Below the pieces are notes generated by a model that was not told the origin of the DNA, ran no database searches, and saw only the letters and a program-made list of their open reading frames with translations. This document shows, piece after piece, positions 5,839-41,748 of a stretch of 57,670 nt of DNA (within the stretch, counting starts at the first letter, position 1; each line of letters begins with the position of its first letter). This DNA is from Pelotomaculum sp. (GTDB taxonomy: Bacteria; Bacillota; Desulfotomaculia; Desulfotomaculales; Pelotomaculaceae). The stretch lies in the NCBI GenBank assembly GCA_018435055.1, contig JAHDOA010000005.1, positions 1 through 57,670 on the forward strand, written 5' to 3'. The translations under genes and the position numbers were made by a program.

Positions 5839-5873
5839 GACATATGTTCTATTTTTTACTTGGAGTGAATTTA

Positions 5874-7052: not shown

Positions 7053-7138
7053 TTAAACAAAGGATCCCTTGCATCGAAGCACAGGACATGATTGGAAGTG
7101 TTGCTGCTTAACTAGTTATTCAAAGTTATTTAAATATT

Positions 7139-7476
7139 TTATAGATTTTTGTTATGCGAATATTGAGCAGATATCTCTTTTAACCTGGTCGCTTCATCCA
7201 TAAAATTAGTATTTTCCCTTATGTTAGTTGAGCTATTTATAGAGTTTTTATTGGTAAAGACAGAAAAACAATCATTTAATATTGCTCCGCCCCAGTTTAC
7301 AATTTCTTGGGAAATACAACTCATGCCCGACTTGATGCAAAGGTTGTTAAATAATTCTGCACTGACTGATAACCCGCGCCAATGTGGATTTTCAACTGAT
7401 AATTTATCATTTAAAACATAAGATCCAATATTTGAATGATGTATAAATCCAAAGCCATTAGGTTTTAGGATCCTAG
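7139..7476 (-). pseudogene. 3' half of a SAM methyltransferase gene split by the IS element
   Basis: Read on the minus strand the frame is open from the IS junction to the stop at 7139 and encodes the C-terminal half of a Methyltransf_11/25-type enzyme. It includes RILKPNGFGFIHHSNIG, then VENPHWRGLSVSAELF and an ending SAQYSHNKNL. Joined to the N-terminal half at 9528–9943 with one copy of CTAG, it restores exactly 250 codons including stop, without any other lesion. The half has no start of its own and is not expected to be expressed. The gene faces the opposite way to its neighbours. Confidence 0.82.
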
Positions 7477-27407: not shown

Positions 27408-27457
27408 TCTCGTTGAGACAGGGAGAGACGAGACAAGGGGACGGTCCTTTTGTCTCA
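27373..27457. repeat. Two copies of the TTGTCTC-bordered GGGGACGGTCC repeat
   Basis: Copies at 27373–27401 (inside the 3' end of the LCP gene) and 27430–27457. Each has GAGACAA (or GAAACAA) and TTGTCTC as inverted ends around GGGGACGGTCCTT. Further copies are near 28258–28512. Confidence 0.8.
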
Positions 27458-27582
27458 CTCCTGGTAAAAATGATACGTATCACAACATGCAAGAAAGAAC
27501 CCCAGCAAAATAATAAGAGGGGCGTCACGATGATGCCCCTTGGTTGCATATGTGGGGCGGGTTTCAAACCGCCAATCCCAAT

Positions 27583-28224
27583 TTACAGCGGCACGAAATA
27601 TTGCAGCATCATAATGAAATGTATGATGCTGCCTGCCATCACAAATAGGTGAAAAATCTCATGGAAGCCAAAGCGGTTGGGAAAGAAATTAAAGCATCTG
27701 GTGGCATATATTAAAGCCCCGATGGTGTAGACCACCCCGCCGACAACCATTAAATAAACCGCCCCGGCAGGCAGGTTTTTAAAAAGCTGCAGGAAGGGAA
27801 CCAGGGCAATCCAACCCAGGGTTACATAGAAGGCCGTAGAAACATAGCGTGGGATCTGCATAATACATATCTTGAGGAGCGCTCCAATCAAAGCCAGGGC
27901 CCAGACTGCGGCAAGCATCGTCCATTTCCATGCGCCAGTCAGGCCATAGTAGAACACGGGGGTATATGAACCGGCGATAAACAGGTAAATAGCCACGTGA
28001 TCAAGTTTTCTTAAAAGCAGGGCTTTTTGCGGCGCTGCTATTAGCCAGTGGTATAAAGAGCTGGCCCCATATAAAAAAATAATGCTGAGGCCATAAATTG
28101 TCATGGTGACTAGTTTGGACACATTATTCTTTGACAATATAATCAAGAAAACCAGGCCCACTATTGACGCGATAAAGGTTACAAAATGGGTCAGGGCGTT
28201 TACCGGCTCTTTTATCTTTAACAT
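27583..28224 (-). CDS. Hemolysin III / PAQR family membrane protein (YqfA/TrhA-like)
   Basis: A 213-residue protein with seven hydrophobic segments. EPVNALTHFVTFIASIVGLV at the N-terminus, LYGASSLYHW (Ser/His motif), LDHVAIYLFIAGSYTPVF and EIFHLFVMAGSIIHF are the HlyIII motifs that place His and Asp ligands of a metal centre. Bacterial members affect membrane energetics or lipid homeostasis; haemolytic activity is not implied. It stands alone on the minus strand between repeat clusters, with GGGAGGAT as ribosome site (minus, about 28231–28238). Confidence 0.92.
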   Translation of the reverse strand: MLKIKEPVNALTHFVTFIASIVGLVFLIILSKNNVSKLVTMTIYGLSIIFLYGASSLYHWLIAAPQKALLLRKLDHVAIYLFIAGSYTPVFYYGLTGAWKWTMLAAVWALALIGALLKICIMQIPRYVSTAFYVTLGWIALVPFLQLFKNLPAGAVYLMVVGGVVYTIGALIYATRCFNFFPNRFGFHEIFHLFVMAGSIIHFIMMLQYFVPL

Positions 28225-28257
28225 GGATCAAATCCTCCCAAGGAATTGAGACAAGGT

Positions 28258-28322
28258 GAGACAAGGGGACGGTCCTTTTGTTTCACCACAATTTGAGACA
28301 ACGGGACGGTCCTTTTGTCTCA
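28258..28322. repeat. Two copies of the GGGGACGGTCC repeat
   Basis: Copies at 28258–28285 and 28294–28322 in the same orientation as those at 27.4 kb, immediately upstream of the hemolysin III gene. The second has ACGGGACGG in place of AGGGGACGG. Confidence 0.8.
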
Positions 28323-28387
28323 ATCCCGCAAGTTCAACTGGATTTATAGGTAAGCAGCCGTCCTGTACTTCCCTTTGCAAAAATAGT

Positions 28388-28512
28388 ACAGAAGGACTGT
28401 CCCCCTTGTCTCCCCTTGTCTTCAAGTGGCTGCCCCGAATGAGACAAAAGGACCGTCCCCTTGTTTCAGGTGGTTGCCCCGAATGAGACAAAAGGACCGT
28501 CCCCTTGTCTCA
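28388..28512. repeat. Three copies of the GGGGACGGTCC repeat in opposite orientation
   Basis: A degenerate copy at 28388–28413 and good copies at 28440–28468 and 28484–28512, reading GGACCGTCCCC on the plus strand. The last two share an additional upstream stretch (TGCCCCGAA), so they arose by duplication of a longer unit. They abut the 3' end of the ligase gene. Confidence 0.8.
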
Positions 28513-28527
28513 CCTTTGTATTACGGA

Positions 28528-30045
28528 TCAAAGGGGGGGTGTTTCCTGGCCGTCCAGGTGAGGCAGGGCGGCGGCGACGCCGAGCAGAAGCCAGAAGTAG
28601 ATGGCCATGGAGGGCACCTCAAAGATGTTTTCTACCCCATTATGCAGCAGTATGCCCATAAGGCCGGCGAACAGACCACCGGCAAGTCCTTTCAAGTAGG
28701 GGTCGGTCAGTCTTCTGTACGAATTCAAAACACAGCGCATACCGCTGATTAACAGCCAGACAAATGCGGCCAATCCGATGATGCCCGATTCGGCGGCTGT
28801 CTTTAAGTAAAAATTGTCGACATAGTTGCTGCTCGGGATATAACGGTCGGCCACCGCCCCGCCGTATCTGCCGAACCCTTCGCCAAACAGCGGGTTGTTC
28901 TGCAGTTTTTCTATAGCCTTGTTCCAGCGGGCCACCCGCCCGGCTCTGGCGCTGCTCAGCAGGTAGGCCGGAGAAAGCATATAGCCGATGCGTGAAGATA
29001 TGCCCGGTATGAGCTTTGGCGCGGTATAAATGGCCGCCCCCAGCGCTAGTAAAATGCGCCAGTTGTAAATCAAGCCGTAGACCACGAAAGCGCCGGCCAT
29101 GGCCAGCCAGGCCCCTCTGGAGTAGGTGAAAACCAGACTCAGGGCCATCGGCGCCAGGCAGGCAATGTAGTAGTAGCGTTGCAGCCTTGTCCCGGCGGAA
29201 AGAAACTGGCTGACAGTAACCGGTATTAACAGCACCAGGAAGCTGCCCAGGACGTTGGGGCTGGTCAGGATGGAAAACACCCTGGTCCTGACGCCTCCTT
29301 CCGCAGCGTCAAGCCAGGTGGACGGGATTTCCACCCCGATAATATACTGGTACACCCCGTGCAACGCTATCAGCGCTCCCAGGGCAACCAGCAGGTTAAC
29401 CAGCACCCGCGCCTGCCTTTTGTTCAGCAGCAGGTTGCTGGCCACAAAGAACCACAACATATACTCCACATATACCCGTACCCCTTCCACAGCGACGCCC
29501 AGCTGGGGCGAACGGACCAGGAATAGAAAGACGACCACCGCCAGGAAAAGCAGTATCGGCACGTCCACCGGGGTAATGCGGTAGGTGAGCCTGCCCCGCA
29601 GCGCCATCTGTACCGGCCAGGCCAGGACAAGCAGGAGCAGCAACAGCTCGTCCCAGTTGCTGGCCAGCAACATAAATCTGGAATTGCGCAGCAGGTAGTC
29701 CACAGCAGGATAACAGATAATAAGCAAAAGGACCGTTTCTACCCTGACCTCCGCTAAACTGGTGAAGATTAAGCTGTTTTGCCAGACAGGGCGCGATTTC
29801 AAGTTCAGCAAGAAACTGCCCGGCAAGCCGCGCCTGACTGCTGTTCCAGCCGGCAACAACGGTCGCAGCAGCAAGCCGGCCAGGAAGGCGAGCATCCGGG
29901 CAAACAGCGAGCAGCGGATGGCATACTGGCGGCCAGGCCAGGCGGTGTCTGTAAGCCACCGGCAAAAGGCGCTATGCCGGCAAGTCCTGTACAGGGCGGC
30001 CGCCAGGCGGCCAATCAGGCTTTCCTGCCATGCCGGTAAAATCAT
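28528..30045 (-). CDS. O-antigen ligase / Wzy-type polymerase family membrane protein
   Basis: A 505-residue polytopic protein (about 11–12 helices) of the Wzy_C/WaaL superfamily, which polymerises or transfers lipid-linked glycans outside the membrane. The start is minus ATG at 30045 with TGGAGGAAC upstream; the open frame extends to 30525 but that part runs antisense to the neighbouring gene. Diagnostic is the large loop: GVEIPSTWLDA, VFSILTSPNVLGSFLVLLIP, FTYSRGAWLA, then NPLFGEGFGRYGG and a NYVDNFYLKTAAESG segment. Polymerase and ligase cannot be told apart by sequence. It diverges from the GT4 gene at 30191. Confidence 0.88.
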   Translation of the reverse strand: MILPAWQESLIGRLAAALYRTCRHSAFCRWLTDTAWPGRQYAIRCSLFARMLAFLAGLLLRPLLPAGTAVRRGLPGSFLLNLKSRPVWQNSLIFTSLAEVRVETVLLLIICYPAVDYLLRNSRFMLLASNWDELLLLLLVLAWPVQMALRGRLTYRITPVDVPILLFLAVVVFLFLVRSPQLGVAVEGVRVYVEYMLWFFVASNLLLNKRQARVLVNLLVALGALIALHGVYQYIIGVEIPSTWLDAAEGGVRTRVFSILTSPNVLGSFLVLLIPVTVSQFLSAGTRLQRYYYIACLAPMALSLVFTYSRGAWLAMAGAFVVYGLIYNWRILLALGAAIYTAPKLIPGISSRIGYMLSPAYLLSSARAGRVARWNKAIEKLQNNPLFGEGFGRYGGAVADRYIPSSNYVDNFYLKTAAESGIIGLAAFVWLLISGMRCVLNSYRRLTDPYLKGLAGGLFAGLMGILLHNGVENIFEVPSMAIYFWLLLGVAAALPHLDGQETPPL

Positions 30046-30190
30046 AAGAGTTCCTCCATGTTGATTCGAGTTGATTAATGAATATATTATAAATGAAAGC
30101 AACGCGAAAATCCATGATATCGTTTTCCTTACCTTGTGGAATGAATAGTAAATTGGTAAAATGAGAAAAGCAAAGCAGGAGGGCGCGTTT

Positions 30191-31324
30191 GTGAGATCCA
30201 TAAAGGTTTTGCATATCATTGGCGGCGGAGAATTCGGCGGGGCGGAAAAACATATTTTAAACCTGGCCGGGGCGGTTGACCCCATGGCGGTAGAGCTTAC
30301 AGTCTGCTGCCTTTTTAGCGCTCCCTTTGTTGAAATTGCCGCCGGCGCCGGGATCAACGCGCTGACTATACCCATGCGCAGCAAGGTTGACTTTGCCGTG
30401 GCTAGGAAATTGTCCGCCCTGATCCAGAGCGGGGAATTTGATCTTGTCCATACCCACGGGGTCAGGGCTAACCTGCTCGGAAGGCTGGCCGCCCGCCGGG
30501 CCGGTAAAAAGAAAGTAATTACCACGGTGCACAGCCTCCTGGAGAAAGATTACCAGGGAATGGCGCTCCGTTATGCCAATAACCTGGCTGAACGGGCCAC
30601 GAGGTCCTTAACCGGCCACTTTATCGCTGTTTCACAAGGGCTTAAAGACCGCCTCGTTGCCGGCGGTATCCCGGCCAAAAATATTACTGTAATTTATAAC
30701 GGGATATTACTGGACGAGCTCAGGCCTGCCGGCGCCGCAGGAGCTGCCTTAAAAGAAAAATATGCCGGCGGGGGAGCGCCGCTGGTCGGTATAGTGGCGC
30801 GGCTGCACGAGGTAAAAGGGCACCGTTACTTTATTGAGGCGGCCCGGGAGATACTGCGGCAGCGCCCGGCCACCCGTTTTTTAATTATTGGGGATGGTCC
30901 GCACCGCCCGGTCCTGGAAAAGTTGGCCGGCAGCATGGGACTGAGCGATCGGGTCGTCTTTACCGGCTTTGTGGAAGATGTCTATTCATTAATGGCCGGG
31001 CTGGACCTGCTGGTGATTTCCTCGTTGTGGGAAGGCTTCGGGCTGACAGCGATAGAGGCGATGGTCCTGGGGACACCGGTAGTAGCCACCGAGGTCGGCG
31101 GTTTGCCCGAGGTGGTTCAACACGGAGAGACTGGATTGCTGGCGCCGCCCGCCAACGCCGCCGCCCTGGCCAAAAGCATTGTCTGGATGCTGGATCACCC
31201 GCGGGAAGCCAGGGAAATGGCCGCAAAAGGCGGGGATATGGTGCGGCGCAAGTTTACCGCCGGGGAAATGGCCCGCCGGACTGTAGACCTGTATCGAAAG
31301 GTGTTGGCTGGCGACGGTGTTTAA
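30191..31324 (+). CDS. GT4 family glycosyltransferase
   Basis: GT-B glycosyltransferase, 377 residues from GTG 30191, chosen because AGGAGGG lies at 30177–30183; ATG 30161 in frame has no such site. KVLHIIGGGEFGGAEKHILN is the first strand and glycine loop, HTHGVRANLLGRLAARR the N-domain helix and LVISSLWEGFGLTAIEAMVL the donor site. GT4 relatives make exopolysaccharides and teichuronic acids. The gene overlaps the next one by 8 bp (31317–31324), so the two are coupled. Confidence 0.88.
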   Translation: MRSIKVLHIIGGGEFGGAEKHILNLAGAVDPMAVELTVCCLFSAPFVEIAAGAGINALTIPMRSKVDFAVARKLSALIQSGEFDLVHTHGVRANLLGRLAARRAGKKKVITTVHSLLEKDYQGMALRYANNLAERATRSLTGHFIAVSQGLKDRLVAGGIPAKNITVIYNGILLDELRPAGAAGAALKEKYAGGGAPLVGIVARLHEVKGHRYFIEAAREILRQRPATRFLIIGDGPHRPVLEKLAGSMGLSDRVVFTGFVEDVYSLMAGLDLLVISSLWEGFGLTAIEAMVLGTPVVATEVGGLPEVVQHGETGLLAPPANAAALAKSIVWMLDHPREAREMAAKGGDMVRRKFTAGEMARRTVDLYRKVLAGDGV

Positions 31325-32468
31325 AGGAGAGAATATTATCTGCCTGGCGGCCGCCGCCTGGCAGGGAATGTGGGCGCGCGCGCAGCAGTTCATGACCATA
31401 TTTGCCCGCTCAGGAAACCGCATATTATATGTCGATCCTCCCCTTACCTTAATTTCCCCCCTGAAAAATCCTGCCCTGTGGAGCGTACCGAAAGACCTCC
31501 GGCAGTGCGGGGGAGAGAATATTGACCTTTACAACCCGCCGGTTATACTGCCCTTCGGGAATATGTACCGGCCTATCAACCGTATCAACCAGCGGATCAT
31601 CGCCGGCGGCCTGAAAAAGCTCTGCCGGGAACTGGCTTTCAAGCCCACTATCTGCTGGACCTACCTGCCCAACACGGTTGACCTGCGCCTGCCGGACGGC
31701 GTCACGCTTGTTTACGACTGCGCTGACGAGCATACCGCTTTTCCTGGTTTAATTAACAAAGAAACAGTTTCACAGATGGAAAAGGAGCTTTTTGCCCGCG
31801 CCGGCGTATCGCTGGCCAGCGCCCGGGTGCTCTGGGAGCGCAAGAAGGAATTAGCGCCTGCGATCGAGCTGGCGCCAAACGGCGCCGACGTGGAGCATTT
31901 TAGCAGGGCTATGCAGCCCGGTTTGCCGCCGCCGCCGGAATTGAAAGCCTTACCCCGGCCGGTCATCGGTTATGTCGGGGCGGTTAGCGCCTGGTTCGAC
32001 CAGGAGATGGTGGCGGCCGCCGCCCATGCCTACCCGGAATGGTCTTTTGTCCTGGTTGGTCCCGTGGACACGGATGTGTCGCTGCTTAGCTCCCTGCCCA
32101 ACGTTTGCCTGCCCGGGCGCAAGCCCTATTCCGCCCTGCCGGCCTACCTGAAATGTTTTGACATTGCTGTGATTCCTTTCAAAATAAACGAGCTGACCAC
32201 GGGTGTGAACCCGGTGAAACTCTATGAATATCTCGCCGCCGGCCTTCCGGTTGTTTCTTCGGATCTTCCCGAAGTCAGGGCATTCCGGCCTCATGTGGCG
32301 ATAGCCGGAAATGCGGCGGAGTTCGTCAGCAAACTGGAGAAGGAATTGGCCGCGGATTCAGCGGGAAAGAGAGCGGAGCGGCGGGAGATTGCCGGGCGGC
32401 ATTCCTGGGAAGCCAGGGCGAAATCCGTTGTGGCGGCTGTCCAGCGGAACAGAAAAAGAAAAAAATAA
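31317..32468 (+). CDS. TuaH-like glycosyltransferase (GT-B fold)
   Basis: A 383-residue glycosyltransferase resembling TuaH of teichuronic acid synthesis. Features: WQGMWARAQQFMTIFARSGN at the start, the ILYVDPPLTLISP segment, TLVYDCADEHTAFPG in mid-protein and TTGVNPVKLYEYLAAGLPVV, a donor-binding glutamate region. The start GTG 31317 overlaps the previous gene and has no own ribosome site, indicating translational coupling. Specificity unknown. After it comes a 130-bp gap with GGGGGGTG just past the stop and a possible Spo0A box at 32497. Confidence 0.82.
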   Translation: MFKGENIICLAAAAWQGMWARAQQFMTIFARSGNRILYVDPPLTLISPLKNPALWSVPKDLRQCGGENIDLYNPPVILPFGNMYRPINRINQRIIAGGLKKLCRELAFKPTICWTYLPNTVDLRLPDGVTLVYDCADEHTAFPGLINKETVSQMEKELFARAGVSLASARVLWERKKELAPAIELAPNGADVEHFSRAMQPGLPPPPELKALPRPVIGYVGAVSAWFDQEMVAAAAHAYPEWSFVLVGPVDTDVSLLSSLPNVCLPGRKPYSALPAYLKCFDIAVIPFKINELTTGVNPVKLYEYLAAGLPVVSSDLPEVRAFRPHVAIAGNAAEFVSKLEKELAADSAGKRAERREIAGRHSWEARAKSVVAAVQRNRKRKK

Positions 32469-32496
32469 GGGGGGGTGTAAAGTTTAAGCAAAAATA

Positions 32497-32504
32497 TTGT
32501 CGAA
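32497..32504 (+). promoter_or_regulatory. Possible Spo0A box upstream of the agr unit
   Basis: TTGTCGAA, a near match to the Spo0A box core, 98 bp upstream of the first gene of the agr-like operon. An AT-rich stretch with TTGTCA at about 32562 follows and may hold the promoter. Confidence 0.25.
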
Positions 32505-32601
32505 TTATAATGGATAATAGTAGAAATTTATGGGGTTATTTAGCAGGTTTTTGGAGTAACCTTGTCAAATATATTATTTTGGTAGAAGTTGGTGAGCATA
32601 A

Positions 32602-33069
32602 GTGGAAAAATGCCTATTGTTTCTTTTGCAGGGGATACCGGAATCAGCGGGTTATTTTGCTTTGAGTTTGGCCTTGTTAGGCGTTCCCCTGCGCTGGAAG
32701 CGCATCATAGCGGCGGGAACGTTATTGGCCCTGGTTTTTTTCGTGGTGAGATCCCTCCCTTTTACCTTCGGTTTTCACATGGCGGTAGGGTTATTCATAA
32801 TTGTTATCGCTATCAACAGAGCTACTCATTTGCCGGTAACTAAAATTTTTATAGCCGTGCTTGCTAGTTTTCTAACCCTTATCTTGCTTGAACTGGTAAT
32901 GATGAAAATTTTCTTTGCCGCTACGGGGCTTGATCCGAACGCGACCATTGTGGGGAACAGCAACGTCTTATGGAAATTAGCAGGCCTGCCGCAGGCTTTG
33001 TTGCTGAATATATTTGCCCTGTTAGCCGCCAGGTTTAAAAAACCGAGAGAGGAGGCCTGGAAAATGTGA
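32602..33069 (+). CDS. Small integral membrane protein of the agr-like operon
   Basis: A 155-residue protein with about four to five membrane helices (for example residues 15–35, 38–55, 60–75, 80–105 and 130–145). No family is recognised from the sequence. GTG 32602 is used with TTGGTGAG at 32589–32596. The stop overlaps the AgrB start (33066–33069), so it belongs to the peptide-signalling operon. A role in export, sensing or immunity for the peptide is possible; AgrC-like kinase domains are absent. Confidence 0.75.
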   Translation: MEKCLLFLLQGIPESAGYFALSLALLGVPLRWKRIIAAGTLLALVFFVVRSLPFTFGFHMAVGLFIIVIAINRATHLPVTKIFIAVLASFLTLILLELVMMKIFFAATGLDPNATIVGNSNVLWKLAGLPQALLLNIFALLAARFKKPREEAWKM

Positions 33070-33704
33070 GCTACTTTGCCATTAGTAAAAACCTGGCCGG
33101 GTTCTTAACTGAAAAAGCCGGCCTTGCCCATGAGAAGGAATCCATCCTGGCTTACGCTATCGAGATGACCGTTATCACCCTGGGCAACACCCTCTTCACC
33201 CTGCTGCTGGCCGCCCTGCTCGGCGTGCTGCCCGGCGTCCTGTCCTGCCTTGTCGTGGTTTTCCTGTTCAGGCACACGGCCGGCGGCGCCCATTCCAACT
33301 CCCCCTGGCGCTGCGCCGCGGTCACCGTAACCATTTATCCGGCAATGGCCTTGTCGGCGGTGTATCTCGCGGGGCTCGGCGCGGCATTTATCGACGCCCT
33401 GTCAGCCGTCGCCCTCCTGCTCGGGTTGAGCGCGATTGTTGTTTTAGCCCCGGTCGACTCGCCGTCCGCCCCCATTATTTCACCGTACCGGAGAAAGAAA
33501 TTGAAGGTCCTTTCGCTGGCGGTGTTTACGCTGACAGCGGCAGCCGTGGTTTGCCTCCGCCAAAGCGACTGGGTTTACGCTTCCCAAATCCGGGTCTGTT
33601 TAATATTAACCGTCCTGTGGATCAGCTTCATGCTCGGTAAACCGGGGCACCGGCTGATGTGCCTTGTGGATAGAATAAAATTTAAGGAGGTGCGAGATTC
33701 ATGA
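33066..33704 (+). CDS. agrB: AgrB-like accessory gene regulator (peptide-processing membrane protease)
   Basis: Cysteine endopeptidase of the membrane that trims the C-terminus of AgrD-type propeptides and forms the thiolactone ring. Six hydrophobic segments are visible. The active-site region is VVFLFRHTAGGAHSNSPWRC, with the catalytic His in GGAHS and the catalytic Cys seven residues later, as in AgrB. SPYRRKKLK corresponds to the conserved basic loop. 212 residues is normal. GTG 33066 overlaps the upstream gene by 4 bp and the stop overlaps the agrD start (ATGA 33701–33704). Confidence 0.93.
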   Translation: MSYFAISKNLAGFLTEKAGLAHEKESILAYAIEMTVITLGNTLFTLLLAALLGVLPGVLSCLVVVFLFRHTAGGAHSNSPWRCAAVTVTIYPAMALSAVYLAGLGAAFIDALSAVALLLGLSAIVVLAPVDSPSAPIISPYRRKKLKVLSLAVFTLTAAAVVCLRQSDWVYASQIRVCLILTVLWISFMLGKPGHRLMCLVDRIKFKEVRDS

Positions 33705-33832
33705 GAAAAATAGCAGTACGGCTGATTGTTTTTGCGACAACCACGCTACTTTTACTTGCAAACGTATTCGCGGCGTCCGCATGCGGCTCATATCAGTATC
33801 AGCCGGAAGTGCCACAATCGCTGAGGAGGTAA
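33701..33832 (+). CDS. agrD: AgrD-like cyclic lactone autoinducer propeptide
   Basis: A 43-residue ORF below usual cut-offs. TTAAGGAGGTG at 33682–33692 is a strong ribosome site and the ATG overlaps the agrB stop. The N-terminal 24 residues form a basic, amphipathic/hydrophobic leader (MRKIAVRLIVFATTTLLLL). The core ASACGSYQYQ contains the only Cys (residue 28), expected to form the thiolactone ring. The C-terminal PEVPQSLRR matches the PxxPxxL recognition tail of clostridial AgrD peptides. The exact ring size and N-terminal cut are unknown. A terminator follows immediately. Confidence 0.88.
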   Translation: MRKIAVRLIVFATTTLLLLANVFAASACGSYQYQPEVPQSLRR

Positions 33833-33834
33833 TC

Positions 33835-33862
33835 AAAGAGGTGGTCTTCCACCTCTTTTTTA
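33835..33862 (+). terminator. Rho-independent terminator after agrD
   Basis: AAAGAGGTGG (33835–33844) pairs with CCACCTCTTT (33849–33858) around TCTT, followed by a T run. It separates the agr operon from the kinase gene. Confidence 0.88.
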
Positions 33863-33883
33863 ACATGCTCGTTTGAGGGGTGA

Positions 33884-35212
33884 ATGTTTTTGCATATGGA
33901 GAATAATAACATAGACAGACAAAACACTCTTTACGAGCATTTGTCGACCATGCAGACGTTATGCATATTCATATTGATGCTGGGCTTTGTCATATATAAA
34001 CAGGTCATTATCTTTTACCCTCCAAATGGCATGCATATTTTTTTTGTTTTATTGTGCCTAATCGGGCTGGGAACTGTTTTATTTTATAATTCTACTTCTT
34101 TTCGCAATATTAATATTCTGGAGAGTCAACCTCTCGATGATTACAATCATAGAACATTAGTCAAATATATATATATAACAATCCCGTTTCTAGTTGCTTT
34201 AGCTTTAATTTTCATCAGTGAAAAAGGTTTTTTAGTGGAGACGGTATTTATACTGCCCGTCTTGTTTGCCGCTACTGTGTTGGGTGCGAAAGCCAGTTTT
34301 CTAATGTCCACGGTCTATACCCTTATTTTGATTTTATACCGGTCCGACTTAAAACTTGAGTCCCTGGCAGAGGCGCTGGAAGATAATATATTTCTTATCT
34401 GCACCATGTTTGCGGTCAGCTGGTTTGTCAGCGGCCTGATGGAAATTGAAGCGCGGCACCGCCGGCAGTTGAAAGACAACATGCTGTCCCTGAAAGAAGA
34501 GATGGCCCGGCGGGAGGAGATGGAGAAGGAGATGGCCCGCCTGGACAGGATGAATTTAATCGGGGAAATGGCGGCGGGCATCGGTCACGAAATCAGAAAC
34601 CCGATGACAACCGTAAGAGGTTTTTTGCAGTTGATGGAGGGGAAAGAAAGGTATGCTCAGGACAGAAGGTTTCTTACACTGATGATCGGTGAACTGGACA
34701 GGGCGAATGCCATTATTACCGAGTTCCTGTCCCTGGCCAGAAACAAAGCCGCGGACTTAAAGGAACGGGATCTCAACTCTATAATAGAGAGCCTTTTCCC
34801 TTTAATCCAGGCGGACGCGCTGATTGCTGAAAAGAATATTGAAAAAGACCTGGTGGAGCTCCCAGTCTTATTATTAGATGAGAAAGAGATCCGCCAGCTA
34901 ATTTTAAACCTGGTAAGAAATGGGCTTGAGGCCATGGCCGCCGGCGGTAAATTGACGATCAGGACCGCGCTGATCGGGGAAGAGGCGGTGCTGGCCATCC
35001 AGGACGAAGGCGCTGGCATTGAAGGCGAGGTGCTGGATAAAATCGGCGCCCCCTTTTTTACGACAAAAGATACCGGGACCGGCCTTGGTCTGGCGGTGTG
35101 CTATAGTATCGCCAACAGGCATAAAGCTGAAATAAACGTGGAGACTTCACCGGCAGGCACCACCTTTTATGTCAGGTTCAAACCGCCTGACGCGGCCAGG
35201 GTTTCCGCCTGA
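33884..35212 (+). CDS. Membrane sensor histidine kinase (sporulation-kinase-like)
   Basis: A 442-residue kinase. The N-terminal half has about six hydrophobic segments (residues 25–180) with little extracellular loop. A coiled-coil linker (ARREEMEKEMARLDRM) leads to a HisKA domain with the phospho-accepting His in GIGHEIRNPMTTVRGFLQLM and a HATPase_c domain (NLVRNGLEAM N-box, DEGAGIEG G1, GTGLGLAVC G2). HEIRNPMT...FLQLM closely resembles Bacillus KinA–E. No response regulator is adjacent, so it probably feeds a remote regulator or a Spo0 phosphorelay. Beside agrBD it may be the peptide receptor. GAGGGGTG at 33875–33882 fits TTG 33890 better than ATG 33884. Confidence 0.9.
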   Translation: MFLHMENNNIDRQNTLYEHLSTMQTLCIFILMLGFVIYKQVIIFYPPNGMHIFFVLLCLIGLGTVLFYNSTSFRNINILESQPLDDYNHRTLVKYIYITIPFLVALALIFISEKGFLVETVFILPVLFAATVLGAKASFLMSTVYTLILILYRSDLKLESLAEALEDNIFLICTMFAVSWFVSGLMEIEARHRRQLKDNMLSLKEEMARREEMEKEMARLDRMNLIGEMAAGIGHEIRNPMTTVRGFLQLMEGKERYAQDRRFLTLMIGELDRANAIITEFLSLARNKAADLKERDLNSIIESLFPLIQADALIAEKNIEKDLVELPVLLLDEKEIRQLILNLVRNGLEAMAAGGKLTIRTALIGEEAVLAIQDEGAGIEGEVLDKIGAPFFTTKDTGTGLGLAVCYSIANRHKAEINVETSPAGTTFYVRFKPPDAARVSA

Positions 35213-35226
35213 GGGCCAGTTGCTTT

Positions 35227-35712
35227 TTATTCAATAATCTCCACGTTCATTACTTGACCCTTGAACTCGTAAAGGAGGGATTTGACATAGTACTCCTTGT
35301 TGCTCCTGATATCCTGTCCGCCTAAGTTGATCGTGCCGGACGAAATAATGGTTGTTCCCTCCAGGGTAAAAATCACATCCTTTAAAAACGGGTCGACTGC
35401 CTCCACACGCCGGCCCTCGCTGTCTGAAATGACCATAAAGGCGGGCTGAATTTCAAAATCTTTTATTACCACGTTGGTAAAACTGGACCCTGAAACCATC
35501 TTATCTCCCACCTGGACATTCGTCAGCATCTCCGGCCGGATAGCGGGGGCCAGTACTGTTATCTTTACAGTTTTAGGCGCGTTCTGGACGTTGTCATGTC
35601 CCTTGATTTTATAGACCGCTCCCCCGATTACCAGCAAAACCGCTGCCAGTACCAGCAGGTCAATAATATTTACCAGCCCCAGAAATTTCCCTTTTTCATC
35701 AATAATTCTCAT
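35227..35712 (-). CDS. DUF4330 domain protein
   Basis: A 161-residue protein whose start is minus ATG at 35712 with GAGGAGAAATG upstream; the longer open frame to 35904 covers the divergent promoter region. MRIIDEKGKFLGLVNIIDLL and the following single membrane helix (LVLAAVLLVIGGAVY) are diagnostic of DUF4330. The outer part is predicted beta-rich (VQVGDKMVSGSSFTNVVIKD). Function is not known; DUF4330 proteins occur in Firmicutes and Cyanobacteria. It is divergent from fabZ with 150 bp between. Confidence 0.85.
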   Translation of the reverse strand: MRIIDEKGKFLGLVNIIDLLVLAAVLLVIGGAVYKIKGHDNVQNAPKTVKITVLAPAIRPEMLTNVQVGDKMVSGSSFTNVVIKDFEIQPAFMVISDSEGRRVEAVDPFLKDVIFTLEGTTIISSGTINLGGQDIRSNKEYYVKSLLYEFKGQVMNVEIIE

Positions 35713-35862
35713 GTCATTTCTCCTCGTAAAATCTCTCATTACAATATAAATCAATTTCTTGCATAGATCAACTTCAAGATTGAGCCTAAATACAGGTTTA
35801 TACACGATAGATTTGGGTTTATAATGGTATGTAAAGTTGTATTGTGTGCCGGAGGTGAATTT

Positions 35863-36291
35863 TTGTTGTTGGATATAAAACAGATCCAGGAAATACTGCC
35901 CCACCGCTACCCCTTTTTGCTGGTGGACAGAATCATATCATTGGAAGAGGGCAAAAAGGCCGTGGGTATAAAAAATGTCAGTGTCAACGAGCCTTTTTTT
36001 CAGGGTCATTTTCCCGGACACCCGGTTATGCCGGGGGTGCTGATCCTCGAGGCCATGGCGCAGGTCGGCGCTGTCGTCGTTTTGAAGATGCCTGAATTCG
36101 CCGGTAAAATAGCGTTATTTGCCGGTATGGACAAGGTCCGTTTCCGGCGGCAGGTGGTTCCGGGTGACGTGCTCAGGATTGAGGTCCAGGTGCAAAAACT
36201 GCGCGGGACTTTCGGTAAAAGCTATGCCGCCGCCTACGTCGGCGATGAAATGGCCGCCGAGGCGGAAATGATGTTTGGCCTGCAAAAATAG
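35863..36291 (+). CDS. fabZ: 3-hydroxyacyl-[ACP] dehydratase FabZ
   Basis: Dehydrates 3-hydroxyacyl-ACP in fatty acid elongation. The hot-dog fold motifs are [14 protein letters not shown], then [20 protein letters not shown] with the catalytic His and Glu, and [13 protein letters not shown]. The start is one of three adjacent TTG codons (35863, 35866, 35869) after GGAGGTG at 35851–35857; 142 residues is the usual length. It stands apart from other fab genes, in a cell-envelope neighbourhood. In Gram-negatives fabZ sits with lipid A genes, but no lpx gene is seen here. Confidence 0.95.
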
Positions 36292-36391
36292 TGAGGATTG
36301 GAATCGGTTGATATGCGGAGCATTATTAAGAAGACAGGCCTCCAGGGCTTATTAACCAGGCAAATGACGTTTTTGGGTTGCATTTTAAATA

Positions 36392-36421
36392 TTGTCACAT
36401 CCTGTCCCAATGCGATAGAAT
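36392..36421 (+). promoter_or_regulatory. Sigma-A-type promoter
   Basis: TTGTCA (36392–36397) and TAGAAT (36416–36421) with an 18-bp spacer, 43 bp before the WecA/TagO start. Confidence 0.55.
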
Positions 36422-36463
36422 AAGTAGGATCAGTGTCTTTGTCCGATAATTGGGGGGATGCTC

Positions 36464-37552
36464 GTGCAGGTACCGGTAACGGCTATCGTATTGGCTTTGG
36501 CTCTGGCCTTGCTGGTTACTCCAATGGTCAAAAAATATGCCTTTAAGATTGGCGCACTGGACCGTCCCGACCAGAGAAAAGTACATAAGCGGGTTATGCC
36601 GAGGCTGGGCGGCCTGGCTGTTTATTTCAGTTTTATCGCAGCAGTGCTGCTGACGATGGATATGGGCCCGCAGGTATACGGACTCCTGCTGGGCGGTACC
36701 TTGATTATCATACTGGGGTTTATTGATGACACTAAAGGGCTATCGCCGAGGCTGAAGCTGGCGGGGCAGATAGCGGCGGCCGCGGCTGTAGCCGCCATCC
36801 CTTTCGGACTAAGAGTGGAGTTTCTAACTAACCCGTTTTCTGACAAGTTGATAACTCTAGGTATTCTGGCAATCCCCGTAACGGTACTCTGGATAGTATC
36901 GGTCACCAACGCGGTAAACCTCATTGACGGCCTGGACGGCCTGGCCGGCGGCACAGTCTTTATCTCTGCCCTGACTCTTGCCGCGGTGGTCTGGATTGAG
37001 ACTGCGAAGGCGGGTGTCTTCCCCGGCCAGAGTGAAGCTTTTGTGCTGGCACTAATCCTGGCGGCCGCCATAGCCGGATTTTTACGTTACAATTTTCACC
37101 CGGCAAAAATCTTTCTCGGTGATTCCGGGTCAATGTTTCTCGGTTTCAGCATTGCTGCCCTGTCCATTATGGGAGTGGCCAAAAGCGCCACCTTTATTTC
37201 GGTAATCATACCGGTGGTTATTCTGGGTATTCCCCTGCTTGACACCATATTTGCCATCGTCAGGCGCTACTGCGGCCGCAGGCCTATCTTTCAACCGGAC
37301 AAGGAGCACCTGCACCACCGGCTGATTCAGATGGGATTGAGCCACCGCCAGGCGGTTCTGTCGATTTACGGGGTCAATGTGGTCCTGGGCCTGAGCGCTA
37401 TCGTCCTGACTTTGATCTCACCCAAGCAGGCGGTCATATTCCTGGTAATCCTTTCCACGCTAATCCTGCTGGCTGCAAACAAGTTAGGAGTGGCCGGCGT
37501 CGGGGGACAGTCCCCAATTGCGCCTCAACCGAATAAACAGCAGCGGTCCTGA
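36464..37552 (+). CDS. tagO: Undecaprenyl-phosphate GlcNAc-1-phosphate transferase (WecA/TagO/MraY family)
   Basis: Transfers GlcNAc-1-P from UDP-GlcNAc to undecaprenyl phosphate, starting wall polymer synthesis. About ten membrane helices. Motifs: GFIDDTKGLSP (metal-binding Asp pair), NLIDGLDGLAGG, KIFLGDSGSMFLGF and EHLHHRLIQMG (HIH-type loop). GTG 36464 is preferred because the G6 ribosome tract at 36452–36457 touches the alternative ATG 36458. 362 residues is normal. Its product is the substrate of the TagA-like enzyme at 23331. A short low-complexity tail ends the protein. Confidence 0.93.
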   Translation: MQVPVTAIVLALALALLVTPMVKKYAFKIGALDRPDQRKVHKRVMPRLGGLAVYFSFIAAVLLTMDMGPQVYGLLLGGTLIIILGFIDDTKGLSPRLKLAGQIAAAAAVAAIPFGLRVEFLTNPFSDKLITLGILAIPVTVLWIVSVTNAVNLIDGLDGLAGGTVFISALTLAAVVWIETAKAGVFPGQSEAFVLALILAAAIAGFLRYNFHPAKIFLGDSGSMFLGFSIAALSIMGVAKSATFISVIIPVVILGIPLLDTIFAIVRRYCGRRPIFQPDKEHLHHRLIQMGLSHRQAVLSIYGVNVVLGLSAIVLTLISPKQAVIFLVILSTLILLAANKLGVAGVGGQSPIAPQPNKQQRS

Positions 37553-37570
37553 CATAAGGGCCGCTGTTTT
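37541..37570 (+). terminator. Rho-independent terminator
   Basis: CAGCGGTCC (37541–37549) pairs with GGGCCGCTG (37558–37566, one G-U pair) and is followed by TTTT. The stem begins inside the last codons of the upstream gene. Confidence 0.7.
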
Positions 37571-37583
37571 ACATAGTGATTAT

Positions 37584-37592
37584 TTTGTCGAA
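37584..37592 (+). promoter_or_regulatory. Candidate Spo0A box upstream of galU
   Basis: TTTGTCGAA, 28 bp before the galU start and 13 bp before its AGGAGG site. At this position binding would overlap the transcript start or leader. Confidence 0.35.
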
Positions 37593-37619
37593 CTTAGTTA
37601 GAATAGGAGGAATTTTTCT

Positions 37620-38495
37620 ATGAAAAGAATAAAAAAAGCGGTTATACCCGCTGCCGGTTTGGGGGTGCGTTTTTTACCCGCCACCAAGGCGCAGCCCAAG
37701 GAGATGCTGCCAATTGTAGACAAGCCGGCGATCCAGTACATAGTTGAGGAAGTTATCGAATCAGGCATCGATGAAATACTGATAATCACAGGCAGAAACA
37801 AGCAGTCTATAGAAGACCATTTTGACAAGTCTCTCGAGCTGGAGGTGCGGCTTAAGGAAACCGGGAAAACCCCCCTGCTGGAAATGGTCCAGAGCATCAG
37901 CCGGCTCGCCCACGTCTGCTTTGTCAGGCAGAAGGAACCGCTGGGCCTTGGCCATGCCGTGCATTGCGCCCGCAGGTTCGTCGGCAATGAGCCCTTCGCG
38001 GTGCTGCTGGGTGACGATATCGTGGTGAGCGAGAAACCCTGCCTCAGGCAGATGATCGATATGTATAATGAGGTGCAGTCCTCTGTGATCGCCGTTATGG
38101 AGGTGCCTGAGAAAGATGTATCCAAGTACGGCATCCTGGACTCAGTTGTAGAAAGCCCGGGTTTATACAGGGTCCGTGATCTAGTGGAGAAACCCGCGCC
38201 GGAGAAGGCGCCTTCCCGCCTGGCGATAATGGGCAGGTATATTATCGAGCCGCGTATTTTTTCCTTGCTGGCGGAAGTTAGCCCGGGCGCCGGGGGAGAA
38301 ATTCAGCTGACCGACGCCCTCAAGGCGCTGTGTGCGGAACAGCCTGTTTTTGGCATGACCTTTCAGGGCAAACGATATGATGTTGGTGACAAGCTGGGCT
38401 ACCTGCAGGCCACTGTGGAATTTGCCCTGGCGCGACTGGATTTGCAGGAAGGGTTCCGGCGTTACCTTAAATCCATCTGCAAGGAGCTCAGTTGA
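37620..38495 (+). CDS. galU: UTP-glucose-1-phosphate uridylyltransferase
   Basis: Makes UDP-glucose from UTP and glucose-1-phosphate for glycan synthesis. IKKAVIPAAGLGVRFLPATK is the nucleotide-binding signature with the catalytic Arg/Lys, followed by PKEMLPIVDKPAIQYIVEE, ALLGDDI-like VLLGDDIV metal site and VEKP. GGEIQLTDAL and FQGKRYDVGDKLGYLQA are C-terminal signature segments. 291 residues is standard. ATG 37620 has AGGAGG at 37605–37610. It is coupled to the epimerase downstream (stop and start overlap) and draws on the hexose-phosphate mutase at 40222. Confidence 0.96.
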   Translation: MKRIKKAVIPAAGLGVRFLPATKAQPKEMLPIVDKPAIQYIVEEVIESGIDEILIITGRNKQSIEDHFDKSLELEVRLKETGKTPLLEMVQSISRLAHVCFVRQKEPLGLGHAVHCARRFVGNEPFAVLLGDDIVVSEKPCLRQMIDMYNEVQSSVIAVMEVPEKDVSKYGILDSVVESPGLYRVRDLVEKPAPEKAPSRLAIMGRYIIEPRIFSLLAEVSPGAGGEIQLTDALKALCAEQPVFGMTFQGKRYDVGDKLGYLQATVEFALARLDLQEGFRRYLKSICKELS

Positions 38496-39442
38496 TGAGG
38501 ATACTGGTAACGGGGGGAGCCGGTTTTATCGGCTCACATATTGTTGATTTGCTTGTGGAAACAGGATGCCGGGTTTCGGTGGCAGACAATTTATCATCTG
38601 GACTGTTTGAAAATATTAATCCCAGGGTAAATTTTTATAAAATCGACATACGCGACCAGGCCCTGGCGGAAGCAATTGCCAGGGAGAAGCCAGAGGCGGT
38701 AATACACCTTGCCGCCCAGGCGGATGTGCAGCGATCGCTCAATGACCCGCCGGCCGACGCGTCAATTAACATCCTTGGGACGATCAATCTTTTAAACGCC
38801 TGCGCCGGCTACGGCGTGGGCAAGGTTGTTTATGCATCTACCGCAGCGGTTTACGGCAACCCCACTTACCTGCCTGTGGACGAAGACCACCCGGCAAAGC
38901 CGCAGTCCCCTTATGGCGTTTCTAAATACACTGCGGAACACTACCTCCGGATTTACGGGGAGTTTAGCGCAGTTAATTACACGGTACTGCGCTTTGCCAA
39001 TGTCTATGGGGACCGCCAGGACTCCTCCGCGGAAGGCGGGGTGGTGGCCATATTTGCCGCTAAACTTTTAAGAGGTGAGAGTCCGTGTATTTTCGGCGAC
39101 GGGGAACAAACCCGTGATTTTATTTATGTCAAGGATGTCGCCGCCGCCTGTAGAGCCGCGCTGCGCAGGGGAGACAGCGGAACCTTTAATGTCAGCACCG
39201 GGGCGGGCCTGTCCGTTAACCATTTGTTCCGGGAGCTCAAAAAGATCACCGGCAGCAATCTGGAACCGGTATACCTGCCTCCCCGCCCGGGTGATATTAC
39301 CCACAGCTTCCTGGCCAACGAAAGCGCCTGCGCCTCGCTGGGCTGGCGGCCTCGCTACAGCCTGGCGGAAGGCTTGCGTGAAACCGTAGCAAGGATGTCA
39401 GGGGTGTTGTCAGGGGTGTTGTCAGGGGGACGGGGTTGTTGA
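38495..39442 (+). CDS. NAD-dependent sugar epimerase (UDP-glucose 4-epimerase-like)
   Basis: Extended short-chain dehydrogenase acting on nucleotide sugars, most likely UDP-Glc/UDP-Gal or their GlcNAc forms. Motifs are ILVTGGAGFIGSHIVDLLVE, LAAQADVQRSLNDP, STAAVYG (Ser) and SPYGVSKYTAE (Tyr/Lys). ATG 38495 has AAGGAG at 38481–38486. The C-terminal residues MSGVLSGVLSGGRGC are encoded by a repeat (39396–39446), so the ancestral protein probably ended about 15 residues earlier. 4-epimerase is the best guess; 4,6-dehydratase or UDP-GlcA enzymes are less likely. Confidence 0.85.
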   Translation: MRILVTGGAGFIGSHIVDLLVETGCRVSVADNLSSGLFENINPRVNFYKIDIRDQALAEAIAREKPEAVIHLAAQADVQRSLNDPPADASINILGTINLLNACAGYGVGKVVYASTAAVYGNPTYLPVDEDHPAKPQSPYGVSKYTAEHYLRIYGEFSAVNYTVLRFANVYGDRQDSSAEGGVVAIFAAKLLRGESPCIFGDGEQTRDFIYVKDVAAACRAALRRGDSGTFNVSTGAGLSVNHLFRELKKITGSNLEPVYLPPRPGDITHSFLANESACASLGWRPRYSLAEGLRETVARMSGVLSGVLSGGRGC

Positions 39443-39446
39443 CACC
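39396..39446. repeat. GTGTCAACAACCCCGTCCCC repeat, inverted copy
   Basis: Three TGTCAGGGG steps followed by GGACGGGGTTGTTGACACC. It is the reverse complement of the elements at 43588–43730 and 51318–51396 and covers the 3' end of the epimerase gene. Confidence 0.85.
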
Positions 39447-40221
39447 TTTTGTTTGGGTCCGGACTCGCCGTTCCAATTTTGACATACCTCTATCCCCTTA
39501 CCATTTCCGATTAGTGATATTTCCCCTGCCCTAAAGGGATACCGGTAGAGGACATTTTTCCGCAACCGTTCTTGCACATAGTCATAAATAGACTTATGTC
39601 TAAGATGACCACAGACGCAAGGCGAACAGCTTTCCGTGCGGTTCGTGCCGGGGAATCCCGCCCCGGAACCGGAATACGTTAATCCACATGGCCCGGATTA
39701 CTCACAGTCCAGGTCCCCAAACAGAGGGTGTACCCCCATTCGCTCTAGCTCCCGGTGTGTCCCCGTTCCATTATTGGGCGGGCATCAACCCCCAAAATTG
39801 CGCCCATGTAAATTATTCATCCAACCCGCCCTCATCTCCTCTCTCGCCACTGCCCCCGGGCTGGATTCACCGCTGGCCTGTTTCCCTACCAGGACAATAT
39901 AATCCTCAAACATTTTCCTGCGTTTGCTGAGCTTTCTTAAAATTTTAACCTTATGTTCTCCCATGGCCAAGCCCTCCTTTTCCCATTCAGGACGTACTAA
40001 CAGTGCATAAATACCATTCCTGCCGGCAAACTAATACCTGTAGATTATACGGAGGGAAATGGAAAGATATGAATCTTTACATGGAATTTTGATCAGGGCG
40101 CAAGGCGCCTGTGCCGCAATATTTCCCAGAAAAAGAGGTTGCGGGTAGAATTTGGTCTCCTGTTGCGCGTGGGTGCGTGGTGAAGTAAAGCCAGGGCGTT
40201 TAACTGCTAAGAGGTGGTATA
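39447..40221. other. 775-bp region without an assured gene
   Basis: The region holds one plausible small minus-strand ORF (39785–39964). A second minus-strand stretch around 39480–39640 reads CSPCVCGHLRHKSIYDYVQE and RLRKNVLYRYPFRAGEISL without a start, which looks like the residue of a decayed coding sequence. Base composition is mixed. No terminator, tRNA or riboswitch could be recognised. Confidence 0.4.
39785..39964 (-). CDS. Small hypothetical protein
   Basis: A 59-residue minus-strand ORF with AGGAGG about 8 bp upstream of ATG 39964. It starts MGEHKVKILRKLSKRRKMF, very basic and helical, then loses any clear pattern after EDYIVLVGKQASGESSPG. No family is recognised. The good ribosome site supports translation, but the lack of conserved-looking sequence keeps this doubtful; it could be a leader or a relic. 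Confidence 0.35.
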   Translation of the reverse strand: MGEHKVKILRKLSKRRKMFEDYIVLVGKQASGESSPGAVAREEMRAGWMNNLHGRNFGG

Positions 40222-41634
40222 TTGAAACAAATATCTTTCGGAACAGATGGATGGCGCGGCATCCTGGCCGAGGATTTTAATTTTACCAATGTACGACTGG
40301 TAGCGCGGTCTATAGGTATGTATATCCTCAAACACGGCCTGGCTGCCAGAGGTATTGTGATTGGTTACGACAACCGCTTTTTTTCTGATCGCTTTGCCGC
40401 GGAAATAGCGGGGGTGTTGTCCGGACAGGGCATTCCCGTTTGGATCACGGAACGCGCTACGCCCACGCCCGTGGTGGCCTATGCGATAAAATTATACGGC
40501 GCCGGCGGCGGGATTATGCTGACAGCCAGCCATAACCCGCCTGAGTACAACGGAATTAAATTTATCCCGGAATACGCCGGCCCGGCTCTGCCGCATATCA
40601 CAGGTGAAATTGAGGACAACATCAGGAAGCTGGCAGATGCCTCTATCGTGGGAAAAAATAGCGGGGATGACAAAGCGCCTGTAAAAAAGGTGAATCCTTA
40701 CGCGGATTATGCTCGCCATATTACTGCGCTGGTAGATGTAAACGCTATCCGGAAAGCATGGTTGAAGGTGGTTGTCGACCCGATGCACGGCGCCGGGGTT
40801 GGTTACCTGGAGAACCTGTTAATGCATGCGGGGGCCTCGGTTGCCGCAATTCGCGATTACAGCGATCCTCTTTTCGGGGGTAGCCTGCCCGAACCTGCCG
40901 CCAAATCCCTCGGCCGGTTGAGAGAAAAGGTTATAAACAGCGGGGCACACCTGGGTTTGGCCCTGGATGGTGACGCCGACCGTTTCGGCATAATCGACAG
41001 CAACGGTGAATTTATCACCCCAAACCAGTTTCTGCCCATTTTGCTCTATCACCTTTACAGCGTCAAAAGGTTGCGGGGCCCGGTGGCGCGTACTGTCGCC
41101 ACCACCCACCTGCTGGACAGAATAGCTGACAGATACAGCCAACGGGCTATTGAAACACCAGTTGGTTTTAAATATATCTCCCAATGTCTTACTGAAGAAA
41201 GCGCCGTTCTGGGAGGCGAGGAAAGCGGCGGGTTGTCCGTGCAGGGTCATGTGCCGGAAAAAGACGGTATCCTGGCGGGTCTGCTGGCGGCGGAAATTGT
41301 TGTGGTGCACGGCCTAAGCCTTACTGCGCTAATGGAACAAATAGGCGGGGAATTTGGCCGCCTGTACAGCGAGCGGCTGGATCTCCGCACCTCTACGCAA
41401 GAAAAGGAACGGGTCCTGAGAATTTTACAAGATCTGAAACCAGCAGCACTGGGGAAACGGCGGATAACCGGTGGCACTAAGGCAGACGGGGTTAAATTCT
41501 TGCTGGAAGGCGGGGCGTGGGTTCTGGTACGGGCATCCGGTACCGAACCACTGTTTAGAATCTATGTTGAGGCCGGCGCCCTGGAAGAAGTGAAGGAGAT
41601 ACAAGGGGACATGAAAGCTCTGCTGGCCCTCTAA
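40222..41634 (+). CDS. Phosphoglucomutase/phosphomannomutase family enzyme
   Basis: Alpha-D-phosphohexomutase of 470 residues interconverting hexose 6- and 1-phosphates for sugar-nucleotide supply. Four family sites are present: FGTDGWRGI at the N-terminus, the phosphoserine loop IMLTASHNPPEYNG, the metal loop LALDGDADRFG and the sugar-binding GGEESGGLS, plus the phosphate-binding RASGTEPLFRIYVEA near the end. TTG 40222 follows AAGAGGTGG (40209–40217). It can make Glc-1-P for GalU and possibly Man-1-P for the GDP-mannose route; sequence does not decide. Confidence 0.92.
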   Translation: MKQISFGTDGWRGILAEDFNFTNVRLVARSIGMYILKHGLAARGIVIGYDNRFFSDRFAAEIAGVLSGQGIPVWITERATPTPVVAYAIKLYGAGGGIMLTASHNPPEYNGIKFIPEYAGPALPHITGEIEDNIRKLADASIVGKNSGDDKAPVKKVNPYADYARHITALVDVNAIRKAWLKVVVDPMHGAGVGYLENLLMHAGASVAAIRDYSDPLFGGSLPEPAAKSLGRLREKVINSGAHLGLALDGDADRFGIIDSNGEFITPNQFLPILLYHLYSVKRLRGPVARTVATTHLLDRIADRYSQRAIETPVGFKYISQCLTEESAVLGGEESGGLSVQGHVPEKDGILAGLLAAEIVVVHGLSLTALMEQIGGEFGRLYSERLDLRTSTQEKERVLRILQDLKPAALGKRRITGGTKADGVKFLLEGGAWVLVRASGTEPLFRIYVEAGALEEVKEIQGDMKALLAL

Positions 41635-41649
41635 GCAGAGCGGGGTCGC

Positions 41650-41680
41650 GCGTGTCAAGAGAACCGTCCCCCTGACACGC
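41650..41680. repeat. GTGTCAAGAGAACCGTCCCC repeat with inverted ends
   Basis: GCGTGTCA (41650–41657) and TGACACGC (41673–41680) are perfect inverted ends around AGAGAACCGTCCCCC. It follows the mutase stop codon by 15 bp. Confidence 0.85.
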
Positions 41681-41748
41681 TTAAGAAAAAAACTCTACGG
41701 GGAGGATTTAGACACTTGGGGTAGAAATAAAGTAAACGGTGTTGAAAT

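Follow-up and report, generated by a model that had tools for sequence, protein, structure and literature searches.

The classical agr system (agrBDCA of Staphylococcus aureus) places AgrC, a GHKL (HPK10) kinase, and AgrA, a LytTR regulator, beside AgrB and AgrD, while the agrBD-only loci of Clostridia, such as agr1 of C. difficile and agrBD of C. perfringens, have no adjacent AgrCA, and their receptor is unknown or encoded elsewhere. The C. difficile agr1 locus is reported to influence sporulation (PMC8534292, PMC11210211), and a 2024 review describes the route from AgrD1 to early sporulation as unknown (PMC11210211). Separately, orphan kinases directed to Spo0F are known in sporulation, such as KinA-E of B. 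subtilis and Dtox_1918 of D. acetoxidans; Davidson et al. compiled six residues that mark the specificity of sporulation kinases, and found Spo0F, but not Spo0A, to be phosphorylated in vitro by Dtox_1918, the hexad of which is TTGFQL (PMC6136694). Here we analysed a 57,670-nucleotide stretch of a Pelotomaculum sp. draft genome (GCA_018435055.1, contig JAHDOA010000005.1; the whole stretch is referred to as the window), in which agrB and agrD are preceded by a gene for a 155-residue membrane protein (TM155) and followed by one for a histidine kinase with the Spo0F-type hexad. We consider it probable, judging from the sequence and its conservation, that these anaerobic spore-formers carry an agr-type module that signals into the Spo0 phosphorelay and has neither AgrC nor AgrA.

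Agr itself, loci with agrBD only and kinases of the Spo0F type are known already; an agr variant with swappable outputs appears to be new. No description of the module was found in the literature on agr in Pelotomaculum, Desulfotomaculum and Peptococcaceae, a search that covered few subscription journals, so an earlier report is possible.

An agrBD locus with an orphan kinase and without AgrC and AgrA

The locus lies on the forward strand. TM155 (32602-33069, GTG start, 155 aa) is a five-helix membrane protein, AgrB (33066-33704) matches Pfam PF04647 with 123 bits (E 8.8e-36), and the AgrD precursor (33701-33832) has 43 residues with a cysteine at position 28. The reading frames of TM155 and AgrB, and of AgrB and AgrD, overlap by 4 bp each, and the open reading frame calls and family matches agree with the overlapping operon proposed in a first-pass annotation of this stretch. 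Behind agrD come an intrinsic terminator or attenuator hairpin (33835-33861, 10-bp stem plus T run) and the kinase gene (33884-35212, 442 aa), the ATG of which stands 51 bp past the AgrD stop and ∼22 bp past the T run, not 50 bp past the terminator as annotated at first. The kinase comprises an N-terminal sensor domain (about residues 1-205), a HisKA domain with His235 and the hexad TTGFQL, and HATPase_c, with a weak DUF4118 match in Pfam. It was annotated as lacking a response regulator, and indeed none is adjacent in the window; nor is a LytTR gene nearby, and the neighbouring kinase is of the HisKA plus HATPase_c type and not GHKL.

AgrB, the only copy in the 3.28-Mb draft genome, carries His76 and Cys83, which as read from the sequence are seven residues apart, the spacing of the AgrB catalytic pair. 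AgrD scored 34.3 bits against NCBIfam TIGR04223 (cut-off 19) and 22.2 against Pfam AgrD, marginally below the 22.7 threshold, and has a hydrophobic leader, a Cys core, a conserved C-terminal tail and an adjacent agrB. The pattern C-x4-[YF]-Q-[PT]-x2-P is kept among relatives, with the tail YQPEVPQSLRR in the window, and the predicted ring is Cys28-Gly-Ser-Tyr-Gln, of which the exact end is an estimate. In the AgrD of several complete agr loci (L181, L182, L184, L190 and L192), the ring Cys is replaced by Ser (e.g. PASFILWYQP), which suggests a lactone rather than a thiolactone peptide there.

The sensor domain is constant behind AgrD while the output varies

To survey gene order, 60 related genomes were searched and 40 AgrB loci were read, 39 of them with enough sequence; relatives included Pelotomaculum propionicicum, Sporotomaculum syntrophicum, Desulfocucumis palustris, Desulfoscipio geothermicus and Ca. 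Syntrophopropionicum ammoniitolerans. A gene bearing the sensor domain directly follows AgrD in 34 of the 39 usable loci, and TM155 precedes AgrB in almost all. Among the five exceptions (L041, L044, L045, L056 and L062), two (L041 and L045) belong to genomes with TM155-TM155-AgrD-kinase on a separate contig, and so the module is split there. The sensor profile was then used to collect 40 more loci of the class as a second set. Since these were chosen by the sensor, they show whether AgrB, TM155 and AgrD stand beside it and not the converse; AgrB and the sensor gene occur together in 39 of these 40 loci, nearly all with TM155 and AgrD. As this gene order is shared by the majority of loci throughout the class, the synteny refutes the explanation that an ordinary agrBD stands by chance before an unrelated orphan kinase, which we regard as extremely improbable despite the terminator between agrBD and the kinase gene.

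The fourth gene does not always encode a kinase. Of the 34 first-set loci, 25 have a HisKA kinase at this place, while in the other nine the same sensor is joined to other sequence, with Pfam GGDEF and HD-GYP domains in all eight scanned (L061, L063-L065 and L068-L071); the second set has a Spo0F-type kinase in about ten loci and GGDEF-HD-GYP in most others. In D. acetoxidans (L122), both kinds of output stand behind one AgrD, a GGDEF plus HD-GYP protein (5801-7462) directly following a Dtox_3081-like kinase. The GGDEF motifs of these sister proteins are intact, as are most of the HD-GYP motifs. Thus the element that is constant after AgrD is the sensor, a membrane domain of ∼200 residues weakly resembling DUF4118, and not the output. 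From the question raised by the first-pass annotation, whether the kinase gene always accompanies this agrBD, the nearly constant company of a sensor gene emerged, but not that of a kinase output.

In its own genome, the sensor profile matches the window locus only. Counted by eye, 66 strong sensor matches across genomes divide into 52 beside AgrB, five beside TM155 only and nine with neither nearby, one of the nine (G016:C19) having AgrD directly upstream. In loci without AgrB (L174-L178), AgrD keeps its place immediately before the sensor gene, an indication that AgrD and the sensor form the functional pair. Sensor-domain proteins without AgrD, AgrB or TM155 nearby were also seen at L179, L180 and L188 (one kinase and two GGDEF-like proteins), possible listeners without a signal gene.

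TM155 resembles the sensor of AgrC-type kinases

TM155 has no Pfam or NCBIfam match. Its hidden Markov model profile matches GHKL kinases that are encoded next to AgrB and a LytTR-type regulator, in their N-terminal membrane domain (E 3e-16 and 2e-7), and also finds a stand-alone 158-aa protein next to a short GHKL kinase; in the own genome it matches the window locus only. Such TM155-fused kinases are frequent in genomes of the order, where many open reading frames of 440-570 aa stand beside AgrB, and they lie within complete agr loci composed of a TM155-GHKL kinase, AgrB, AgrD and a LytTR-type regulator. By homology, TM155 is a detached AgrC-type sensor domain with a presumed sensing function. 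Its AlphaFold2 model is a confident five-helix bundle (predicted local distance difference test score (pLDDT) 91.6), for which Foldseek returned no PDB match at E <1 and VIA-align none above Z 4.7. A candidate protease-like catalytic set of Glu14, His59 and Glu97 was rejected, as the pattern is also found in AgrC-like kinase sensors, one with Gln at the Glu14 position.

The locus shares the AgrB and AgrD families with both classical agr and the complete agr loci of the order (e.g. L125, L181-L185, L191 and L192), and the AgrC-like kinases of the latter have TM155 as their sensor domain. In contrast to both, the sensor domain here is a separate protein, a GHKL kinase and a LytTR regulator are lacking, and the output is a Spo0F-type HisKA kinase or GGDEF-HD-GYP. 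Likewise, AgrBD without adjacent AgrCA is common to this locus and the agrBD-only loci of Clostridia, but a conserved sensor gene follows AgrD here. The probable AgrC-type sensor identity of TM155, and a kinase sensor common to enzymes of cyclic di-GMP (c-di-GMP), go beyond what had been annotated.

The homology to AgrC-like sensors of complete agr loci, the conservation of Glu14 (invariant), His59 and Glu97 (both near-invariant), and the duplication of TM155 in many loci would also fit a role in which TM155 by itself receives the peptide, or aids AgrB in processing or export of AgrD, the kinase membrane domain sensing some other input and being merely co-encoded. We consider this unlikely, since at L176, where neither TM155 nor AgrB is nearby, the sensor kinase directly follows AgrD, and after AgrD it is the sensor domain that stays constant while the output varies.

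The kinase groups with Spo0F-directed sporulation kinases

The hexad TTGFQL of the window kinase is identical to that of Dtox_1918 (Table 1 of PMC6136694) and occurs in most of the linked kinases. In a phylogeny of catalytic regions, the linked kinases, Dtox_1918 and other Spo0F-type kinases formed one clade (100/100, 33 rows), outside which fell 19 other HisKA kinases from two genomes; inside it, the agr-linked kinases are not one single group. All seven orphan kinases of the table in PMC6136694 were placed on the D. acetoxidans genome (G047) by gene order, six of them also by hexad. On these two grounds, Dtox_3081 and Dtox_3426 appear to be the agr-linked kinases of D. acetoxidans, an assignment that is only inferred because the genome carries no locus tags; both are among six kinases of this species predicted to target Spo0F (PMC6136694).

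The phosphorelay set is complete in the own genome, with Spo0F between pyrG and fba/rho (contig C39), Spo0B beside obg (C57) and Spo0A beside spoIVB (C49), the neighbour names being read from the sequence by eye. In orphan status, specificity residues and clade grouping, the kinase agrees with the Spo0F-directed sporulation kinases. It differs from them in being agrBD-linked, in a membrane sensor common to c-di-GMP enzymes and in having no PAS match in Pfam, a domain present in the longer relatives scanned; PAS is predictive for sporulation kinases but not strictly so, being unmarked for KinB and KinD in the same table (PMC6136694). The sporulation-type kinase and its connection to the Spo0 phosphorelay, as first annotated, are upheld by hexad, phylogeny and the complete set of Spo0F, Spo0B and Spo0A, and residues and phylogeny strongly suggest that the kinase would feed Spo0F and then Spo0B and Spo0A.

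A second Spo0F-like single-domain regulator (QGVLIVD) was observed on another contig (G000:C28:22730-23218, L132) beside tsaE/tsaB/rimI-like genes, with a D. acetoxidans counterpart in a similar setting.

A differing output also has to be weighed, namely that an agr-responsive kinase acts mainly on stationary phase or biofilm, through Spo0A or through a regulator other than Spo0F, and not on sporulation. The c-di-GMP output of sister loci and the position of the window locus within a surface-polysaccharide gene cluster are consistent with it, and a passage of PMC10579422 cites biofilm as being also under Spo0A control in other firmicutes. However, hexad and clade agree with the Spo0F-directed kinases, the second Spo0F-like regulator has other specificity residues, and the polysaccharide surroundings are not kept at the relative locus L032, so that this output seems unlikely.

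Distant LytTR/GHKL pairs are improbable partners

A search for an AgrA homologue elsewhere, as advised in the first-pass annotation, uncovered two LytTR/GHKL pairs in the own genome, on contigs C6 and C32. These AgrC/AgrA-like pairs might read the peptide, leaving the neighbouring kinase as an independent sporulation kinase; in C. perfringens, VirS/VirR is encoded apart from agrBD and responds to the peptide (PMC4963840). Nevertheless, profile searches of the own genome found neither TM155 nor the sensor domain in either pair, and none of the relatives searched, congeners with the module among them, has an orthologue of the GHKL proteins of the pairs, so that strict co-occurrence with the module fails. 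Together with the strong synteny of kinase and AgrD, this makes the two pairs possible but unlikely partners, and we hold such a division of labour to be quite improbable.

Spo0A-box-like arrays and a conserved hairpin

Upstream of the operon, a tandem Spo0A-box-like array (32498-32525, forward strand) consists of TGTCGAA (32498-32504), TAATGGA (32508-32514) and AGTAGAA (32519-32525). TGTCGAA fits what we take to be the Spo0A box, and was the top enriched 7-mer upstream of the module, found in 13 of 38 loci versus 0.3 expected from dinucleotide shuffles and in 1/38 on the reverse strand, a count that takes in near-identical genomes so that the independent number is slightly lower. It was then tested on new loci and was found in 9/38 versus 0.55 expected (reverse strand 0/38). 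The 7-mer often continues into TGTTGGA at +10 and TGTAGAA at +21, making up the tandem array, for which the window scored 18/21, where the 99th percentile of shuffles is 14.6, a descriptive score since the pattern was derived from the same loci. A single TGTCGAA is weak evidence, the window having eight copies over both strands taken together. The possible Spo0A box first annotated at 32497 is thus located at 32498-32504 and gains support from strong upstream enrichment in two locus sets, an enrichment by which Spo0A may be predicted to bind the operon promoter.

A possible sigma-H-type promoter, GCAGGTTTT-N12-GTCAAAT, lies at 32543-32570 (forward strand), 45 bp past the first box, a spacing repeated in several relatives. 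Scanning with what we take to be the sigma-H consensus gave at least 12/13 matches in 47% of loci versus 6% of shuffles and 11/13 in the window, and the support is weaker than for the box.

Between agrD and the fourth gene, a hairpin stem of at least eight pairs was found in 23 of 27 loci versus 4% of shuffles, so that the expression levels of the kinase and of agrBD probably differ. The hairpin of the window is absent from a generic terminator scan list and was found by direct stem search.

A proposed route from AgrD peptides to the phosphorelay or c-di-GMP

Based on these findings, we propose the following route. AgrB, as its family suggests, would cut AgrD and cyclise it at Cys28 to a thiolactone peptide that is released. 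The peptide would be sensed at the membrane by the N-terminal sensor of the kinase, probably together with TM155, as gene pairing and homology indicate. The kinase would then autophosphorylate on His235 and, given the parts encoded in the genome, pass phosphate to Spo0F, Spo0B and Spo0A, and Spo0A~P would complete a feedback loop by acting on the boxes enriched in front of the operon. At sister loci, the same sensor would drive a GGDEF-HD-GYP enzyme in place of the kinase. In its full form, the proposal is that a two-part receptor, TM155 plus a sensor with a swappable output (Spo0F-directed kinase or GGDEF-HD-GYP), might read AgrD peptides across the Desulfotomaculum/Pelotomaculum class and feed the phosphorelay or c-di-GMP without AgrC/AgrA, with Spo0A feeding back on peptide production; we offer it tentatively, as a scheme with a little less than an equal chance of being right in every part.

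Several observations weigh against this route. The sensor domain has neither AgrB nor TM155 nearby in 9 of the 66 matches, and its use is not confined to agr. The own Spo0F (QGVFEAD) and that of D. acetoxidans (QGILEVD) differ at three of seven specificity positions, which were themselves inferred and then checked against the published string. The kinase is poorly modelled at its N-terminus (pLDDT 71 overall and lower there), the terminator between agrD and the kinase means that expression of the two may differ, and part of the TGTCGAA matches may be -10 elements of sigma-H promoters (L035).

If the proposed route holds, the conserved gene behind AgrD would provide a direct connection from agrBD to sporulation, running from peptide to Spo0F-type kinase to phosphorelay. 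Dtox_3081 and Dtox_3426, predicted sporulation kinases so far without a ligand, would gain one, a link from agr to c-di-GMP would be suggested, and the module would illustrate how a receptor can swap outputs. Close relatives include propionate-oxidising syntrophs, and in a syntrophic propionate community, for which Ca. Syntrophopropionicum was discussed, KEGG analysis of three species found no clear complete quorum-sensing machinery (PMC11201294); perhaps a module without AgrC/AgrA was missed there by being unlike the reference pathway.

Surroundings of the locus

Around the agr module extends a surface-polysaccharide cluster (28528-43323) with glycosyltransferases and O-antigen-ligase-like, GalU, epimerase and flippase-like genes. 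The flanking genes include glycosyltransferase, DUF4330, FabZ and sugar-nucleotide genes and no response regulator. An Rfam scan of 31-37 kb found no RNA family. Farther upstream, at 27361-28516, a cluster of palindromic repeats of 29-44 nt (TGAGACAAGGGGACGGTCCTTTTGTCTCA), in both orientations, surrounds a hemolysin III-like gene and looks like a dispersed repeat family.

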